Assembly (NCBI RefSeq): GCF_003096575.1
Contig: NZ_QEKT01000001.1
Location: 6,102 to 70,101 of the forward strand
Direction: 5' to 3'
From: Convivina intestini
GTDB taxonomy: Bacteria > Bacillota > Bacilli > Lactobacillales > Lactobacillaceae
DNA: 64,000 nucleotides
A program made the position numbers and the translations under genes. Positions 2-8,632 of the stretch are shown here, in pieces (the stretch's first letter is position 1; the number at the start of each line of letters is the position of its first letter). The notes beneath the pieces were generated by a model. It saw only the letters and a program-made list of their open reading frames with translations. It was not told where the DNA came from and ran no database searches.

Positions 2-3000
2 AGCCAGTCGGCTTCAACTAGTGCTTCGATTTCCGATTCGATTTCTGGTTCAACTTCAGCATCGAAGTCAGCAAGTACCTCGACTTCGATTTCAAACTCG
101 GATTCAAAGTCCGCTAGTGAATCAACTTCGACGTCTAGTTCGATCTCGACTTCAACGTCGAATTCAACCAGCGCTTCTGGTTCAACTTCAGCTTCTGAAT
201 CGACTTCGGCTGCTTCAGCAAGTATCTCGACTTCGATGAGTACTTCAACTTCTAACTCGACTTCAGGTTCAACCTCTGGTTCAAAGTCATCGAGCACTTC
301 AACCTCAGATTCAACTTCAAGTAGCGAATCGATTTCGACCTCGGTTTCAAATTCTGATTCAACTGCTTCGATGAGTACTTCAATTTCGAACAGTTCTTCA
401 AAGTCAACTTCGATTTCGGATTCAGCGAGCCAGTCGGCTTCAACTAGTGCTTCGATTTCCGATTCGATTTCTGGTTCAACTTCAGCATCGAAGTCAGCAA
501 GTACCTCGACTTCGATTTCAAACTCGGACTCAACATCAGCCAGTGCGTCAACTTCAACATCTAGTTCGATTTCGACTTCAACTTCAAATTCAACTAGTGC
601 TTCGATTTCAACTAGCACGTCTGCTTCAAGTTCGATGTCAACTTCAACTAGCCAGTCTGCTTCAACTAGTGCTTCGATTTCTGATTCAACTTCTGGTTCG
701 ACATCGGCCTCCAAGTCAGCAAGTACCTCAACTTCGACGTCAAATTCAGATTCGACTTCCGGTTCAAAGTCAACTTCTAAGTCGAACAGCACTTCAAGTT
801 CGGATTCAAGCTCTGACTCAAAGTCAAGTAGCGAATCAACTTCAACATCAAGTTCAATTTCAACTTCGATTTCGGACTCGACTTCTGACAGCATTTCTAA
901 GTCGGCTTCAACCAGTGCTTCGGCTGCTTCGACAAGCACTTCGACATCGATGAGTATTTCGACTTCTGATTCTGGTTCAACTTCCAAGTCGACTTCTAAA
1001 TCAACAAGTACTTCTGGTTCGGATTCAAGTTCTGATTCGAAGTCAAACAGTGAATCAACCTCGACTTCAATTTCGAACTCGGATTCGACGGCTTCAATGA
1101 GTACGTCGATTTCAAATAGTTCTTCGAAGTCAACTTCGATTTCAGACTCAATCAGTCAATCAGCCTCAACGAGTGCTTCGATTTCGGACTCAATTTCTGG
1201 TTCAACTTCAGCTTCCAAGTCAGCAAGTACTTCAACATCTAGTTCAAACTCAGATTCCAAGTCGACGAGCGAATCAATTTCAACTTCAATCTCGAATTCG
1301 GACTCAACCGCTTCGATGAGTATTTCGACCTCAATGAGTACTTCGAGTTCTAATTCGACATCTGGCTCTACCTCTGGTTCGAAGGCTTCAAGTACATCTA
1401 CCTCAGATTCAACCTCAATTTCTGGTTCAATTTCAACGTCGATTTCTAACTCGGATTCAGCCGCTTCGATGAGTACTTCGATTTCGGATAGTTCTTCTAA
1501 GTCGACATCGGCCTCTGCATCAGCAAGCCAGTCGGCCTCAACGAGTGCTTCGATTTCAGATTCAACTTCTGGTTCGAAATCAGCTTCTAAGTCAGCAAGT
1601 ACTTCAACTTCTGACTCAAACTCAGACTCAAAGTCAAGTAGTGAGTCAACTTCGACGTCAAGTTCAATTTCAATGTCGATTTCAGACTCAACTTCTGACA
1701 GTATCTCTAAGTCAGCTTCGACATCGGCTTCGGCTGCCTCAGCAAGTACTTCGACCTCGATGAGTACTTCAACTTCTAACTCGAATTCTGGTTCTACCTC
1801 TGGTTCGAAGTCGGGAAGTACTTCGACATCTGATTCGACTTCTGATTCGTCATCGATTAGTGGTTCGATTTCAACATCGATTTCGAACTCAGATTCAACT
1901 GCTTCGATGAGTACGTCGATTTCAAATAGTTCATCTAAGTCAACTTCAGCTTCTGATTCAGCGAGCCAGTCGGCTTCAACCAGTGCCTCGATTTCTGATT
2001 CAGCTTCGGCTTCGACATCTGCTTCTAAGTCCTCAAGTACTTCAACTTCGACATCAAATTCCGATTCAACATCAGGTTCGAAGTCGTCTTCGAAGTCAAC
2101 TAGCACCTCAAGTTCCGATTCAAGTTCTGACTCAAAGTCAAGTAGTGAGTCAACTTCGACGTCAAGTTCAATTTCAACGTCGATTTCGGACTCAACTTCT
2201 GACAGTATCTCTAAGTCAGCTTCGACATCGGCTTCGGCTGCCTCAGCAAGTACTTCGACTTCGATGAGTACTTCAACTTCTAACTCGACTTCTGGTTCAA
2301 ATTCTGGTTCGAAGTCGGGAAGTACTTCGACATCTGACTCGACCTCAGATTCGACCTCAATTAGTGGTTCGATTTCAACCTCAATTTCTAACTCAGATTC
2401 AACTGCTTCAATGAGTACGTCGATTTCAAATAGCTCTTCGAAATCAACTTCTGAATCTACTTCGACCAGTCAATCAGCTTCAACTAGTGCCTCGATTTCT
2501 GATTCAACCTCTGGCTCAAAGTCGGCTTCAAGGTCAGCAAGTACTTCAACTTCTGATTCCAATTCAGATTCAAAGTCAAGTAGTGACTCGACTTCGACTT
2601 CAAGTTCGATCTCAACATCGATTTCTAACTCAACTTCTAACTCAACTTCTGACAGTATTTCGAAGTCGGCCTCAACATCGGCTTCGGCAGCCTCAGTAAG
2701 TACCTCGACTTCAACCAGTGCTTCTGCGTCTGATTCTGGTTCAAGTTCCAAGTCGACTTCAAAGTCAACTAGTACGTCAACCTCTGGCTCAAGTTCAGAT
2801 TCAACTTCAACTAGCGAGTCAATCTCGACTTCGATTTCGAACTCGGATTCAACGGCTTCAATGAGTACGTCGATTTCAAATAGCTCTTCGAAATCAACTT
2901 CTGAATCTGCTTCGGCCAGCCAGTCAGCTTCAACGAGTGCTTCGATTTCAGATTCAACTTCTGGTTCAAAGTCGACCTCTAAGTCAGCAAGTACTTCAAT

Positions 3001-6000
3001 GTCTGACTCAAGTTCAGATTCAACCTCAACTAGTGAGTCAATCTCGACTTCAATTTCGAACTCTGATTCAACAGCTTCAATGAGTACTTCGATTTCCAAC
3101 AGCTCATCAAAGTCAACTTCAGCTTCTGATTCAGCCAGTCAGTCGGCTTCAACGAGTGCTTCGATTTCAGATTCAACTTCTGGTTCAAAGTCGACTTCTA
3201 AGTCAGCAAGTACTTCGACTTCTGATTCGAACTCAGATTCAAAGTCAAGTAGTGAATCAACATCGACCTCAAGTTCAATTTCAACATCGATTTCTAACTC
3301 AACTTCGGACAGTATTTCAAAGTCGGCCTCAACATCGGCCTCGGCTGCTTCAGTAAGTACTTCGACTTCAACCAGCGCTTCGGCTTCTGATTCTGGTTCA
3401 AGTTCAAAGTCGACTTCGAAGTCGGGAAGTACTTCAACCTCTGATTCGAACTCAGATTCAACCTCAACTAGCGAGTCAATCTCGACTTCAATTTCGAACT
3501 CCGATTCAACGGCTTCAATGAGTACGTCGATTTCAAATAGTTCTTCGAAGTCAACTTCAGCTTCTGATTCAGCAAGTCAGTCGGCTTCAACCAGTGCCTC
3601 GATTTCCGATTCAACTTCTGGCTCAAAGTCGGCCTCACGTTCCGCAAGTACTTCGACTTCTGATTCGAACTCAGATTCAAAGTCAAGTAGTGAGTCAACA
3701 TCGACCTCAAGTTCAGTTTCAACATCGATTTCTAACTCAACTTCTGACAGTATTTCAAAGTCGGCCTCAACATCGGCTTCCGCAGCTTCAGTAAGTACTT
3801 CGACTTCAACCAGTGCTTCGGCTTCTGATTCTGGTTCAAGTTCAAAGTCGACTTCTAAGTCAACTAGCACTTCAACCTCTGGGTCGAGCTCAGATTCAAC
3901 CTCAACTAGCGAGTCAATCTCGACTTCAATTTCGAACTCCGATTCAACTGCTTCAATGAGTACATCGATTTCAAATAGTTCTTCGAAGTCAACTTCTGAA
4001 TCGGCTTCAGCAAGTCAATCGGCCTCGACTAGTGCTTCAATTTCTGATTCAACTTCAGGTTCAAAGTCGTCTTCAAGGTCAGCAAGTACGTCAACTTCTG
4101 AATCTGGTTCTGACTCTAAGTCGGTGAGCGATTCGTCATCAATCAGTACTTCGATTTCAAATAGCTCATCCAAGTCGACTTCAGAATCGACTTCATCAAA
4201 TCAGTCGACCTCAACCAGTAACTCAATCTCTGATTCAGCCTCTGGCTCGAAGTCAAGTTCAAAGTCGGCAAGTACGTCAACTTCTGAATCTAAGTCAGAT
4301 TCACAGTCAACCAGCGATTCAAGTTCAATTTCAGCTTCGATTTCGACATCGGTTTCTGATTCAAAGTCAAGTTCTGTAAGTACTTCTGTTTCTGGATCGA
4401 ATTCGACCGCCTCAGCTAGTGCTTCGACTTCAACCAGTATTTCAAATTCTGATTCAAAGTCAGCTAGTGATTCAACTTCAGTGAGTCAGTCGATTTCAAG
4501 TTCAATCTCTACTTCAGATTCAAATTCTGGATCTAAGTCAACATCGAAGTCGGCAAGTACCTCGACTTCAGACTCAAATTCTGACTCAAAGTCAACTAGC
4601 GATTCTACTTCAGCATCAATTAGTGAATCGACATCAGCAGCTTCGATGAGTACGTCAACTTCAACTAGTACGTCGGTTTCTGATTCCGTATCTGGTTCGA
4701 AGTCCGCTTCCAAGTCAGCAAGCACCTCAACATCGATGTCGAACTCTGATTCGAAATCAACGAGTGATTCAGCTAGTGAATCAGCATCGGCTACTTCAAT
4801 GAGTGCTTCGACCTCAACTAGCACTTCGATTTCTGATTCAGTTTCAGGTTCAAAGTCTGCGTCAAAGTCGGCAAGTACGTCAACTTCTCAATCGAATGCT
4901 GATTCAACGTCAAGCAGTGATTCGACTTCAATTAGTCAATCAATTTCTAGCTCGACTTCATCCTTTGATTCCAAGTCAACATCCAAGTCGACTTCTAAGT
5001 CAGTAAGTACCTCGACTTCTGATTCTGAATCTGACTCAAAGTCAATTAGCACTTCTACGTCAACATCAGTAAGCGCTTCAACTTCGACTTCGATTTCTGA
5101 TTCAAAGTCAATTAGTAATTCTGCGAGTGAATCAGTATCGGCTGCTTCGATGAGTGCATCAACTTCAACCAGCACGTCGCTTTCTGATTCAACTTCTGGT
5201 TCAAAGTCTGCTTCGATCTCAGCAAGTGCGTCAACTTCAGCCTCAATTTCGGATTCAAAGTCTGACAGTACTTCCGAATCAACGAGTCAATCGGCTTCAA
5301 TTTCGACTTCAAAGAATGGTAATAATTCAGACTCAACCTCAACGAGTGCAAGCCAGTCAGCTTCAACATCGACTTCAAAGGATGGTAGCAATCCGGCTTC
5401 AGCTTCTGCTTCAACCTCAATGAGTCAGTCAACTTCTAACTCAATGTCTACAAGTGCAAGTCAGTCGGCTTCAACATCAACTTCAAAGGATGGTAGCAAC
5501 CCGGCTTCAGCCTCAACGAGCCAGTCAACATCAAGCTCAATGTCAACGAGCGCAAGCCAATCTGCTTCGACCTCAAAGTCAAAGGCAGCGCACGATCCAG
5601 CCTCGATGTCTGATTCTGAGTCAATGAGTCAGTCGGCCTCGGCTGCTGGTTCAACGTCAATGTCAACGAGTGCGAGCCAATCGGCTTCGACTTCAAGCTC
5701 AAAGGCAGCGCACGATCCAGCCTCGATGTCTGATTCTGAGTCAATGAGTCAATCAGCCTCGGCTGCTGGTTCAACGTCAATGTCAACGAGTGCTAGTCAA
5801 TCAGCTTCGACTTCAAAGTCAAAGGCCAACGACCCAGCCTCAATGTCTGATTCTGAATCAATGAGTCAATCAGCCTCGGCTGCTGCTTCAACATCAACGA
5901 GTTCGGCTCACGGTAAGGTAGTACCAAACTCAACATCAACAAGCTTGAGCCCTGTTCTTTCAACTTCTGTTTCGAATGCGAAAGCACAAGGACACAGTGC

Positions 6001-6121
6001 TTTGCCAAATACAGGAAAAGATAGTAATAAGCAATCAGCCGCCGGCCTAATCGGCTTAGCTGCTGCAACCTTGTCACTAGGTGTACTTGGTTCAAAGCGC
6101 AAGAAAGAGGAAGAAAAGTAA
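2..6121 (+). CDS. Giant serine-repeat (SRR) cell-wall-anchored adhesin, 5'-truncated by window edge
   Basis: The frame is open from the left edge, so signal peptide and binding domain lie outside; about 2,039 residues are visible. Residues 1 to ~1,960 are almost pure Ser-X dipeptides (X = T, A, I, D, N, K, G, M, E, Q), as in SRR glycoproteins such as GspB, SraP and Fap1, where they form a rod-like O-glycosylated stalk. The C-terminus has a sortase signal: LPNTG at 6002-6016, a hydrophobic helix, then a Lys/Arg/Glu tail. Family knowledge suggests export by accessory SecA2/SecY2 and attachment by sortase A. No accessory Sec or glycosyltransferase genes lie downstream in the window, so they may be upstream. 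Ser codons are mixed (TCN and AGY). Large DNA repeats make copy number unstable. The class is certain; the ligand is unknown. Confidence 0.93.
3..531 (+). repeat. Long direct repeat inside the SRR stalk, offset 426 bp
   Basis: About 100 bp from position 3 recur essentially unchanged from 429, an offset of 426 bp or 142 codons. Similar blocks (S-Q-S-A-S-T-S-A-S followed by the N-S-D-S-T-A-S-M block) recur through the gene to about 4.1 kb with an irregular higher-order period. This fits recent duplication and homogenisation of stalk modules. Confidence 0.75.
5581..5917 (+). repeat. 120-bp tandem repeats near the SRR C-terminus
   Basis: Three tandem units start at 5581, 5701 and 5821. The first two are nearly identical with a period of exactly 120 bp (40 codons). 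The third is diverged and one codon shorter near its start. Each encodes a block beginning K-A-(A)-[11 protein letters not shown], the only place where the Ser-X rule is regularly broken. They lie between the stalk and the wall-spanning region. Confidence 0.85.
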
Positions 6122-7006: not shown

Positions 7007-7339
7007 TTAGTTAATGAAAGTTGTATTACGAGCTTTCCAATCTTCAAGTTTGATTCCAACCCAAAAGCCGTAAATGCCAAGGGTAATGACTATGAAAAAG
7101 AGCCATTTAATCCAGTTACCAAAAAGACCTAGTGCACTACCATTAAATTGCATGCGATGTCCATCGATAACAGTATGATTAATTTTCCAACCATAAATCA
7201 TGACCAGCGCCCAAGGGTAGAGAATACCGAATGAAAAGGCCGTAATAATAGTTCCCAAAACAGACCAGCCAATTAAAGAAACTAAACCACCATCAAAAAA
7301 TGAAGTGCGACCGTTTCGAATTTCGTTTGTTGTAGGCAT
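7007..7339 (-). CDS. DUF898-family small membrane protein
   Basis: A 110-residue protein with two hydrophobic segments (about 18-48 and 75-98) and the pattern F-D-G-G-L near residue 15, W-K-I-N-H-T-V-I-D-G-H in the middle and G-N-W-I-K-W before the second segment. This is characteristic of the short DUF898 (YjgN-like) proteins of lactic acid bacteria. Function is unknown; it is an integral membrane protein. AAGGAG lies about 10 nt before the ATG. It is monocistronic, with its own terminator. A minus-strand hairpin-plus-T signal lies about 75 nt upstream of its start (7415-7447), so its expression could in principle be attenuated by an upstream transcript. Confidence 0.75.
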   Translation of the reverse strand: MPTTNEIRNGRTSFFDGGLVSLIGWSVLGTIITAFSFGILYPWALVMIYGWKINHTVIDGHRMQFNGSALGLFGNWIKWLFFIVITLGIYGFWVGIKLEDWKARNTTFIN

Positions 7340-7414
7340 TACAATATTTCTCCTTAATTATTATAAAGTAACAATTTTAGTTTAACATGCTTGGTATTAG
7401 AGCATTTAAAAGCC

Positions 7415-7447
7415 ATAAATTAAAAAGCATCCTCAATTACGAGAATG
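7415..7447 (-). terminator. Hairpin with T-run upstream of the DUF898 gene (terminator or attenuator)
   Basis: On the minus strand GCATTCTC (7447-7440) pairs with GAGGATGC (7433-7426), with one G-U pair, followed by TTTTTAATTT. Its GAGG arm can also pair with CCTC at 7470-7467, giving a possible alternative fold. No protein gene lies immediately upstream on that strand, so it ends either the structured RNA (if minus-strand) or readthrough. Confidence 0.5.
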
Positions 7448-8012
7448 CGGTGTGATCTGTGCGCCTGAGGTTTTTGCACCCTAGACATAATAATATTAAC
7501 CTGGGTATACAGCAGGTTATGTATAGGACTTATATCGCTATCAGCCAGAAGAGATAGCGAACGCCTAGGGTAGACGTAAGACGCCTGGGACTTATATCAT
7601 CAGCGGATAAGTGTGTGCAATCTAACAAACTATGAGAAATCGAAACTGATGAACGCCCTAATAATAAGTAGCGGGGCTTACAACACTAGGCTAAAAGTGA
7701 GATTGCATGAGATTGTATTTGAAGGTACCTAGTGAATGCCCAAGTTTGTGGTAACGGTTCCAAAAATGCCTAAAACCCATATATCAAAAACTTCATACGA
7801 GTTCAGTATAGAACAATTTAAAAGAAAAGCAAACTTAAAATTTAAGTGCTGTAACAAGGGCTGATTTTGGAATATTTTTATTTAAAAATATCTTGTTAAA
7901 TAGCTTAATGGTAGGATTTGTAGTCGTAAATGGTATAAATTGTGCACTACTAAACAGGACTGGCATAAGATACAATATTATTCGGATAGTTTGCTATTCA
8001 TTAATGGAAATT
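7427..8012 (+). ncRNA. Candidate large structured noncoding RNA preceding tRNA-Ser
   Basis: This gene-free stretch is rich in nested complementary segments: 7480-7490 with 7517-7527 (11 bp, one G-U), an inner 7498-7503/7513-7518 hairpin, 7536-7542 with 7553-7559 (7 bp), a 7-bp TCATCAG/CTGATGA pair (about 7588-7594 with 7648-7654), 7616-7623 with 7700-7707 (8 bp, pseudoknot-forming), and 7684-7690 with 7728-7734 (7 bp). The G-U pairs favour the plus strand. A weak promoter-like pair TTGGTA (7391) and CATAAA (7414) precedes it, and a terminator follows the tRNA at 8238-8260. I find no tmRNA, RNase P or 6S signature. Size and tRNA neighbour recall GOLLD/ROOL-type RNAs, but identity is not shown and the minus strand is not excluded. 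The AT-rich part 7800-8012 shows only weak hairpins. Confidence 0.45.
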
Positions 8013-8102
8013 GGAGCTATGGCACAATCTGGTACTGCAGCGGACTCGAAATCCGTCGAGCCGTCGTATGGCGGTGTGCGGGTTCAAATCCCGCTAGCTC
8101 CT
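8013..8102 (+). tRNA. tRNA-Ser(CGA)
   Basis: A full class II cloverleaf. The acceptor stem GGAGCTA/TAGCTCC is perfect, the D-stem is GCA/TGC with GG in the loop, the anticodon loop is CTCGAAA (anticodon CGA), there is a long variable arm of about 21 nt with its own hairpin, and the T-arm is GCGGG-TTCAAAT-CCCGC. CCA is not encoded. The discriminator position reads T, whereas bacterial tRNA-Ser normally has G73. It lies directly downstream of the structured segment. Confidence 0.9.
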
Positions 8103-8237
8103 TTAAATTGAACCAAACAATGATTAGGTTAATTGATTATGCGAAAAGAATTAAAACTAATCTATATTGCTTTGATCCTGTGCCTCTTAGGCGCGCAGGT
8201 ATTCGACTGCTCTTCATGTGGCTATAAGGGGACAAGG

Positions 8238-8260
8238 AAACGGTTAAACGCCGTTTTTTT
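8238..8260 (+). terminator. Terminator downstream of tRNA-Ser(CGA)
   Basis: The stem AAACGGT/GCCGTTT (8238-8244 with 8250-8256, one G-U) has a 5-nt loop and is followed by a T-run. It plausibly ends the tRNA transcription unit. A GC-rich hairpin at about 8178-8202 lies between the tRNA and this terminator. Confidence 0.8.
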
Positions 8261-8284: not shown

Positions 8285-8632
8285 TTACTCCGTTAACTGG
8301 GCACTTTCTTTAATCATATTGATTAGTTCCTCTTCTAATATTTCGGTATTGTTGATGTTAATTGAAATCCAGTATTTTTTATTCATATGATAACCAGGTT
8401 CAATCCCACTAATATGAACCATTTGGCTGACATGTTCCGCGGTTAATTTTAAATTCAGCCATAGCGTCGTATCCTTGATAAAAATCATTGCTATGATTTT
8501 TTTATTTTTTGGATGTCGAATGATATGCCAAATAATTTTTTCGTGCGACTTGCCACCGTTAAAGGGAAAATCTTCGTAGCCGTTACTATATTTAATGGTG
8601 AGGTTAACCAATTCATCAAGTTTAAATTGCAT
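8285..8632 (-). CDS. MmcQ/YjbR family protein
   Basis: A 115-residue cytoplasmic protein. The pattern Y-E-D-F-P-F near residue 20, W-L-N-L-K-L near residue 58, G-I-E-P-G-Y-H-M-N-K-K-Y-W in the middle and a C-terminal E-E-L-x-x-M-I-K-E-S matches the MmcQ/YjbR (DUF419) fold, a small double-wing-type domain. Members are often called DNA-binding, but no defined role is established for this type. Length is normal for the family. It is a single gene facing the tRNA unit, whose terminator lies at its 3' side. Confidence 0.8.
   Translation of the reverse strand: MQFKLDELVNLTIKYSNGYEDFPFNGGKSHEKIIWHIIRHPKNKKIIAMIFIKDTTLWLNLKLTAEHVSQMVHISGIEPGYHMNKKYWISININNTEILEEELINMIKESAQLTE

Follow-up and report, generated by a model that had tools for sequence, protein, structure and literature searches.

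A bulged-hairpin module, arrayed in Convivina genomes and dispersed after stop codons in phages, as a candidate uncatalogued RNA element

What lies in the gap at 7340-8012, bounded by a DUF898-like gene on one side and tRNA-Ser(CGA) on the other, in the stretch of Convivina intestini DNA analysed here (64,000 nucleotides, called the window)? A sequence-only reading had proposed a plus-strand structured RNA of about 600 nt that feeds into the tRNA and is akin to the GOLLD and ROOL RNAs. The features of the locus are listed below, with matches to R2, a model built from 20 copies of the hairpin module described in this work.

7007-7339, minus: DUF898-like gene (Pfam E 1.8e-6; 27.8 bits, cut-off 28)
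7448-7427, minus: intrinsic terminator, GCATTCTCGTAATTGAGGATGC followed by TTTTT (terminator scan)
~7505-7524, minus: conserved small hairpin beside module 1, of the ATACAnnnnnnTATGTAT type (alignments A1/A2)
7525-7566, minus: module 1, short-loop form (R2 match G000:C1:13614-13670, E 7.0e-6, not an R2 training row)
7587-7658, minus: module 2 (R2 E 3.8e-11, R2 training row)
7673-7742, minus: module 3, first in the putative transcript (R2 match G000:C1:13762-13845, E 1.2e-12, R2 training row)
7805-7832, minus: candidate promoter of the stand-alone RNA, TTGCTT-16-TATACT (read from the sequence)
8013-8102, plus: tRNA-Ser(CGA) (Rfam match), a neighbour outside the hairpin element
8234-8260, plus: terminator-like site 3' of tRNA-Ser(CGA), separate from the minus-strand RNA
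8285-8632, minus: YjbR-family gene (Pfam), beyond tRNA-Ser(CGA)

Three tandem copies of one hairpin module span 7525-7742. The complementary segments noticed earlier are indeed present and belong to these three copies of one covarying module (7525-7566, 7587-7658 and 7673-7742), as do the repeated ATAAGYCC-type blocks, which constitute its conserved half; the tRNA at 8013-8102 and the plus-strand terminator-like site at 8234-8260 were likewise correctly seen. The loop of module 2 contains a UUUCUC(C)U segment that is kept in homologues, and in the ATACAnnnnnnTATGTAT-type hairpin at 7505-7524 one pair is broken in the window copy. The structured extent of about 600 nt did not hold, given that the BLASTN match of the second Convivina species covers only 7405-7661 and that 7746-8010 on the plus strand folds no better than its shuffles (z 0.14); a promoter-like stretch at about 7800-7835 is also common to the second species. 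Nor did the idea of a segment feeding into tRNA-Ser survive, because the orthologous locus of the second species (L006, genome G001) has no tRNA within the 5 kb read. In this locus the DUF898-like gene next to the array appears decayed by eye (L006:1500-1720). Elsewhere in the window, at 236-6121, a serine-rich repeat protein of 1961 aa with an LPNTG-type C-terminal end is encoded, and ORFs with a serine-rich-repeat look adjoin another array (L021).

The only Rfam family found in the segment at gathering score was tRNA; when the limit was relaxed to E 10, five additional matches appeared, each of which overlapped the tRNA and scored far below its own gathering threshold. BLASTN of the segment against phage (50,697) and plasmid (72,556) records gave no match. 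The fold energy of 7508-7745 is weak and unremarkable (z of -1.46 on the minus and -0.50 on the plus strand), so that covariation, not energy, carries the case for structure.

On the minus strand of the window the module reads RGGC-N-[variable stem-loop]-RUAAG-Y-CCY, with a core GGC-N / RUAAG-Y-CC in which the pyrimidine is bulged. Its constant part is an asymmetric internal loop of about 11 near-invariant nucleotides, flanked by two short helices that vary freely, as does the hairpin loop. In an alignment of three loci (the window, a second copy in the same genome G000 and G001), the stems change on both sides and pairing is kept. A search with the 5' half-motif gave 31 matches in nine sources. 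A strict rule that asked for a complementary stem and for the 3' half was satisfied by 26 of them; three of the remaining five were found by R2, one (L022, 6525) resembles a defective module and one (window, minus strand, 11451) is a chance match.

For counting covariation, 28 modules were aligned and the eight with short or odd loops were dropped first, leaving 20 modules from two species, several of which are orthologues of each other, so that the cells are not independent. Of their 240 cells 95.0% are paired, compared with 82.0% after shuffling and 26-46% after sliding. Cells changed on both sides numbered 38 against a shuffled mean of 11.8, and the covariation score of 0.484 exceeded both the shuffled value (0.218, 0 of 500 shuffles reaching the observed score) and the slid ones (at most 0.163). 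Two coarser measures separated the modules less well from their shuffles: a both-side change occurred in 8 pairs, where shuffling gave 6.0 (26/500), and there were 15 further pair types, where it gave 14.5 (248/500). The first G or A stands opposite C or U in 19 of the 20 modules. Judged from its sequences, the module is a genuine structured RNA, uncatalogued in the Rfam 15 scans made. The call for covariation in homologues was thus borne out for the stems themselves, which belong to a short repeated module and not to one large ornate RNA.

The window genome (G000, 1.6 Mb) holds a second, diverged copy of the locus on another contig, and BLASTN against 60 genomes gave a match in only one other, G001, of the same genus. 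R1, a model of three loci, had five matches in each of the two Convivina genomes and none in the rest of 397 genomes of the family; the matched loci are tandem arrays of the one module. With R2 at E up to 0.1, each Convivina genome contains 18 modules in six loci, the 12 arrays having two to four modules each by R2 and one of them five by eye (L022). When R2 was run on 397 family and 395 order genomes, two overlapping sets searched under stricter filters, only three weak single matches of 24-32 bits appeared outside the genus. Two of these, in Lactobacillales, look coding by eye (L055, L069), and the third is a single candidate match of 32.4 bits in another Lactobacillales genome (L068, G716:C25:310832-310905). 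On inspection by eye, other matches in genome contigs (L057, L059, L060) and in viruses (L062-L064) were discarded, because they were probably coding or lacked outer pairs. R3, a largely phage-derived model described below, matched the window's own genome and no other in a filtered search of 398 genomes of the phylum Bacillota.

Integrases near arrays were confirmed by Pfam in two loci (L019, L071), an ORF of L022 begins identically to the L071 integrase, and ORFs in L018 and L020 are integrase-like by eye. Six of the 12 arrays start 7-22 nt after a co-directional stop codon, two of them behind the same repressor-type gene, whose L071 copy has HTH and S24 domains (Pfam); the other six, including that of the window, have no co-directional stop codon within 22 nt upstream. 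In L070 a module sits between a stop codon and an intrinsic terminator, as read from the sequence. Four loci, two per species, appear as stand-alone RNAs, and the copies on contig C5 lie 245 and 198 nt from a tRNA-Leu. ORFs of 56-171 codons overlap several arrays, those of 86-106 codons in L018-L020 being on the opposite strand; these short ORFs across modules are judged incidental.

Several further observations concern these regions. The prophage arrays L012, L013, L016 and L071 share a conserved stretch, GTGCTRGGGATCACGTTAAAAGCCAAC or near variants, in gene direction after or within the array, and L070 has a shorter form of it, GTGCAATTCACGTTAAAA. In L019 and L020 hairpins of the form GCCC-nnnn-GGGC followed by GTACAT stand at both ends of the array. 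A group I intron scoring above the Rfam gathering score lies in a Convivina prophage region (L018:11357-11577, minus), and a protein with a PemK/MazF-like domain (Pfam E 2e-8) is encoded at L020:5998-6909 (plus), 112 nt downstream of a four-module array.

Viral copies were obtained by scanning the 2.9 million contigs of IMG/VR with patterns containing both core halves. At least three flanking pairs were present in 45 of 109 distinct viral-contig matches, where about six were expected with G-U allowed; this count imposed no outer helix, and in two of the scan patterns the first outer pair was already fixed. R2 added further copies in the same viral contigs, as many as six within 12.6 kb of L167, all pointing the same way, and the 22-base form of the element occurs in at least 120 stretches. 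The pairing rule was passed by 224 distinct elements in 118 of 245 loci. The viral copies are single dispersed hairpins with the same core, and most of them directly follow a stop codon and are oriented as the genes are; 58 of the 224, divided 30 to 28 between the strands, fall within ORFs and could reflect chance or misannotation. In the Synechococcus phage S-EIVl two clear copies stand between annotated genes, and one of these was used to train R3; a third, weaker copy overlaps an annotated gene. The L167 contig matches this phage at 71% over 15% of an 8-kb query. A search with the element's sequence strings returned no phage paper by title among the matches listed.

From the stop codon to the helix the viral elements show a median distance of 6 nt (n=144; 40 values exceed 40 nt), and when the loci were single-linked into 15 protein-sharing clusters, one loosely linked cluster taking 95 of the 118 loci, cluster medians were 2-16 nt in nine of the ten measurable clusters, counting only distances below 60 nt. 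The next start codon follows at a median of 28 nt (n=130). A fixed spacing of this kind was rejected, as the medians of individual clusters vary between 15 and 66 nt when only distances below 80 nt are counted. A phage tRNA begins 7-10 nt beyond the end of the core in 13 of 45 listed elements, and 11 of these tRNAs are tRNA-Leu. One hairpin element (L193, 2158-2195) lies about 13 nt from a glutamine-II riboswitch at 2092-2145 (minus).

At orthologous sites in related contigs the element was kept in 594 pairs, which are non-independent. A further 46 ortholog pairs were scored as being without it, and in 37 of the 40 inspected a variant core was present, three lacking it; the 37 variants lie around the tRNA-Leu site, and in them pairs have been swapped, for instance U-U replaced by C-G or C-G by U-A. 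A REP-like mobile insertion, expected to be sporadic with clean empty sites, was rejected on these grounds. An identity as intrinsic terminator was also set aside, a U-tract (T5 within about 14 nt of the 3' end) being present in 7 of 224 viral elements only.

R3 was built from 37 viral rows, out of 66 candidates, and four Convivina rows, pairing having been selected beforehand. Its 41 mixed elements show 133 both-side changes against 40.8 in shuffles, and 10 pairs with a both-side change against 9.4. This mostly phage-built model finds Convivina modules on which it was not trained, on the gene strand (L071, E 2.5e-5; L022, E 3.3e-5). In the window it matches module 1, itself an R3 training row (7521-7570, minus, E 3.2e-6), and at E 0.1 gives no match to modules 2 and 3.

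On which strand is the RNA made, and where would it begin and end? Read as RGGC-N-stem-RUAAG-Y-CCY, the viral elements are co-directional with both flanking genes in 112 cases and opposed to both in three; 26 and 12 are mixed and 13 lie beside a contig end. Among 206 viral elements wobble pairs favour the gene strand modestly, with 26 G-U against 8 A-C over the two outer and four inner pairs, or 31 against 18 if the third outer pair is included. An alignment (A5) of the four stand-alone loci runs, by eye, from a TATACT-type -10 to a hairpin with a T-run; the window and G001-C3 have this -10 and the sequence around it in common. The promoter scan listed the homologous TTGATT-16-TATACT in L006 (6 sites against 3.7 shuffled) and did not list the TTGCTT-16-TATACT of the window (2 sites against 3.2). 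The terminator scan gave three terminator-like sites in the window segment, both strands together, against 0.8 expected, none in L006 and none at the corresponding place in L003; in L019 and L020 a T-run follows a GC hairpin on the opposite strand.

From the terminator, the gene orientation and the viral relatives we infer that the RNA is made on the gene strand, which is the minus strand in the window, and that it probably starts near 7800 and ends at the 7448-7427 terminator, running away from tRNA-Ser. The plus-strand RNA proposed before was dropped, because genes, tRNAs and terminators oppose it and the gene orientation of the viral relatives speaks for the other strand; the Convivina wobble counts, 7 against 7, are neutral in this respect.

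Anatomy, orientation and spacing together suggest an RNA signal at the 3' end of messages. Our preferred reading, to which we give a probability of about 0.4, is a phage 3'-UTR or intercistronic RNA element that would bind a predicted factor or nuclease and was duplicated in Convivina to give arrays as well as RNA genes of their own. A protein or endonuclease would recognise the asymmetric internal loop; this factor could mark or protect the 3' end of the upstream message, and the element would separate this message from the next gene or tRNA. Convivina prophages would have multiplied the element behind genes of the lysogeny region, and two loci per genome, that of the window among them, may have become stand-alone RNA genes of an estimated 250-375 nt, whose arrays might titrate this factor at several sites, as CsrB-type sponges do. 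Both roles, that of the loop as a binding or cleavage site and that of the arrays as decoys, are putative. No partner protein for the element came to light.

This reading is supported by covariation in the Convivina modules and in the 41 mixed elements, by the gene orientation, stop-codon spacing and conserved orthologous sites of the viral copies, by the half of the Convivina arrays that follow stop codons, the L070 module and the minus-strand terminator of the window, and by the recognition of untrained Convivina modules by R3 on the gene strand. It is weakened by the weak z-scores, the modest wobble evidence, the T-runs and ORFs on the opposite strand, the half of the arrays without a near stop codon, the failure of R3 on window modules 2 and 3, the viral matches inside ORFs and the concentration of loci in one cluster. 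A shared ancestor of the phage and Convivina modules is hypothetical. It is a tentative proposal, more doubtful than likely, that all these copies form an undescribed RNA class with a single bulged-hairpin core, a punctuation mark after stop codons in unrelated phages that would be read by a factor or cleave itself and that Convivina prophages captured as arrays and as stand-alone decoys.

The main rival is a trans-acting small RNA in which CU-rich segments of the long, G-poor loops would pair with Shine-Dalgarno sequences and block translation, the modules serving as scaffolds. The loops contain 11% G, and all four stand-alone RNAs retain GAUUUCUC(C)U. Of 30 loop rows, about four of which are nested or chance rows, 17 contain CTCC, TCCT or CCTC when read on the gene strand, against a mean of 10.8 after shuffling each loop (19 of 2000 shuffles reach the observed count), and none of the 30 does so on the other strand. 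However, a stricter anti-Shine-Dalgarno count is weaker (10 against 5.8, 81/2000), pyrimidine runs are not enriched in the loops (13 against 13.4) and the window copy has lost CUCCU. In the two genomes the complement, AGGAGAAATCAT, has no exact match outside the RNA loci. Allowing one mismatch gives 17 places in one genome and 10 in the other, where the reversed control gives 10 and 9. This target search thus stayed near the control level and no target emerged; we regard the small-RNA account as unlikely. It is also possible to think of the module as a DNA hairpin, recognised as folded single strand by a transposase, integrase or replication protein, as REP elements and attC sites are. The element is multicopy and intergenic, several arrays lie beside integrases, the outermost pairs are almost purely Watson-Crick, and the balance of A-C and G-U in Convivina would fit DNA as well. 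Against this stand the conserved, not sporadic, orthologous positions, the gene orientation and stop-codon spacing of the viral elements and their excess of G-U over A-C on the gene strand, which make a DNA hairpin distinctly unlikely.

A small self-cleaving ribozyme, or a host-nuclease site, that cuts polycistronic phage RNA between genes and before tRNAs is a further alternative: some 11 near-invariant nucleotides sit in an asymmetric internal loop, and the distance of 7-10 nt to the tRNA 5' end recurs in 13 of 45 listed viral elements. Nevertheless, known ribozyme families gave no match in the Rfam scans made, which covered the window segment and parts of related loci (the group I intron lies elsewhere in L018), and the helices are too short for typical RNase III sites; we consider this account improbable. 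Finally, a large ornate RNA of the GOLLD or ROOL type linked to the tRNA would agree with a non-coding locus, an association with mobile DNA and a tRNA nearby, and the sequence-only reading was right in expecting a structured non-coding RNA of no known family with such a connection. The kinship itself fell away: the Rfam check for GOLLD, ROOL, tmRNA and RNase P gave no match at gathering score and no informative one at E up to 10, the hairpins are short and modular, and the tRNA is absent in the second species, leaving this possibility with hardly any weight.

The element is of interest as a compact RNA motif that can be searched for by pattern, with strong covariation, a characteristic genomic position in viruses and no Rfam 15 match in the scans made. 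If its position reflects function, it would reveal a new step in the processing of phage messages and could serve as bait for an RNA-binding protein or nuclease in hosts from Synechococcus to Lactobacillaceae, the stand-alone Convivina RNAs being a natural decoy should that function hold. The locus also illustrates how a neighbouring tRNA and a large unannotated gap can mislead towards GOLLD or ROOL.

Among known systems, GOLLD and ROOL are the subject of a cryo-EM paper (PMC12286853). The element resembles these large non-coding RNAs in its Lactobacillales and phage settings and in the tRNA nearby. It differs from them in that short repeated hairpins make up an RNA of an estimated 375 nt, whose strand is not that of the tRNA; GOLLD, ROOL, tmRNA, RNase P and other Rfam 15 families are excluded by the lack of any match in the segment, or for the element in parts of related loci.

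Adjacency to a tRNA, a feature of GOLLD and ROOL, is not kept in L006. The REP/BIME elements of enterobacteria are bulged hairpins behind stop codons, multicopy and sometimes tandem, all of which applies to the present element, whereas its core is different and it occurs in phages at conserved positions. The RNase III intercistronic sites of phage T7 are hairpins with an asymmetric internal loop between phage genes; the present element shares the intergenic phage location and such a loop, but has a fixed sequence core across unrelated phages and far shorter helices. The promoter/stem-loop cassettes of T4-type phages (PeSL) likewise place stem-loops between phage genes, and are defined together with early promoters. 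CsrB/RsmZ-type sponges are stand-alone RNAs of repeated binding hairpins, and the stand-alone Convivina RNAs, built of a repeated hairpin motif recognised by R2, are similar in design, with a different motif and predicted binding.
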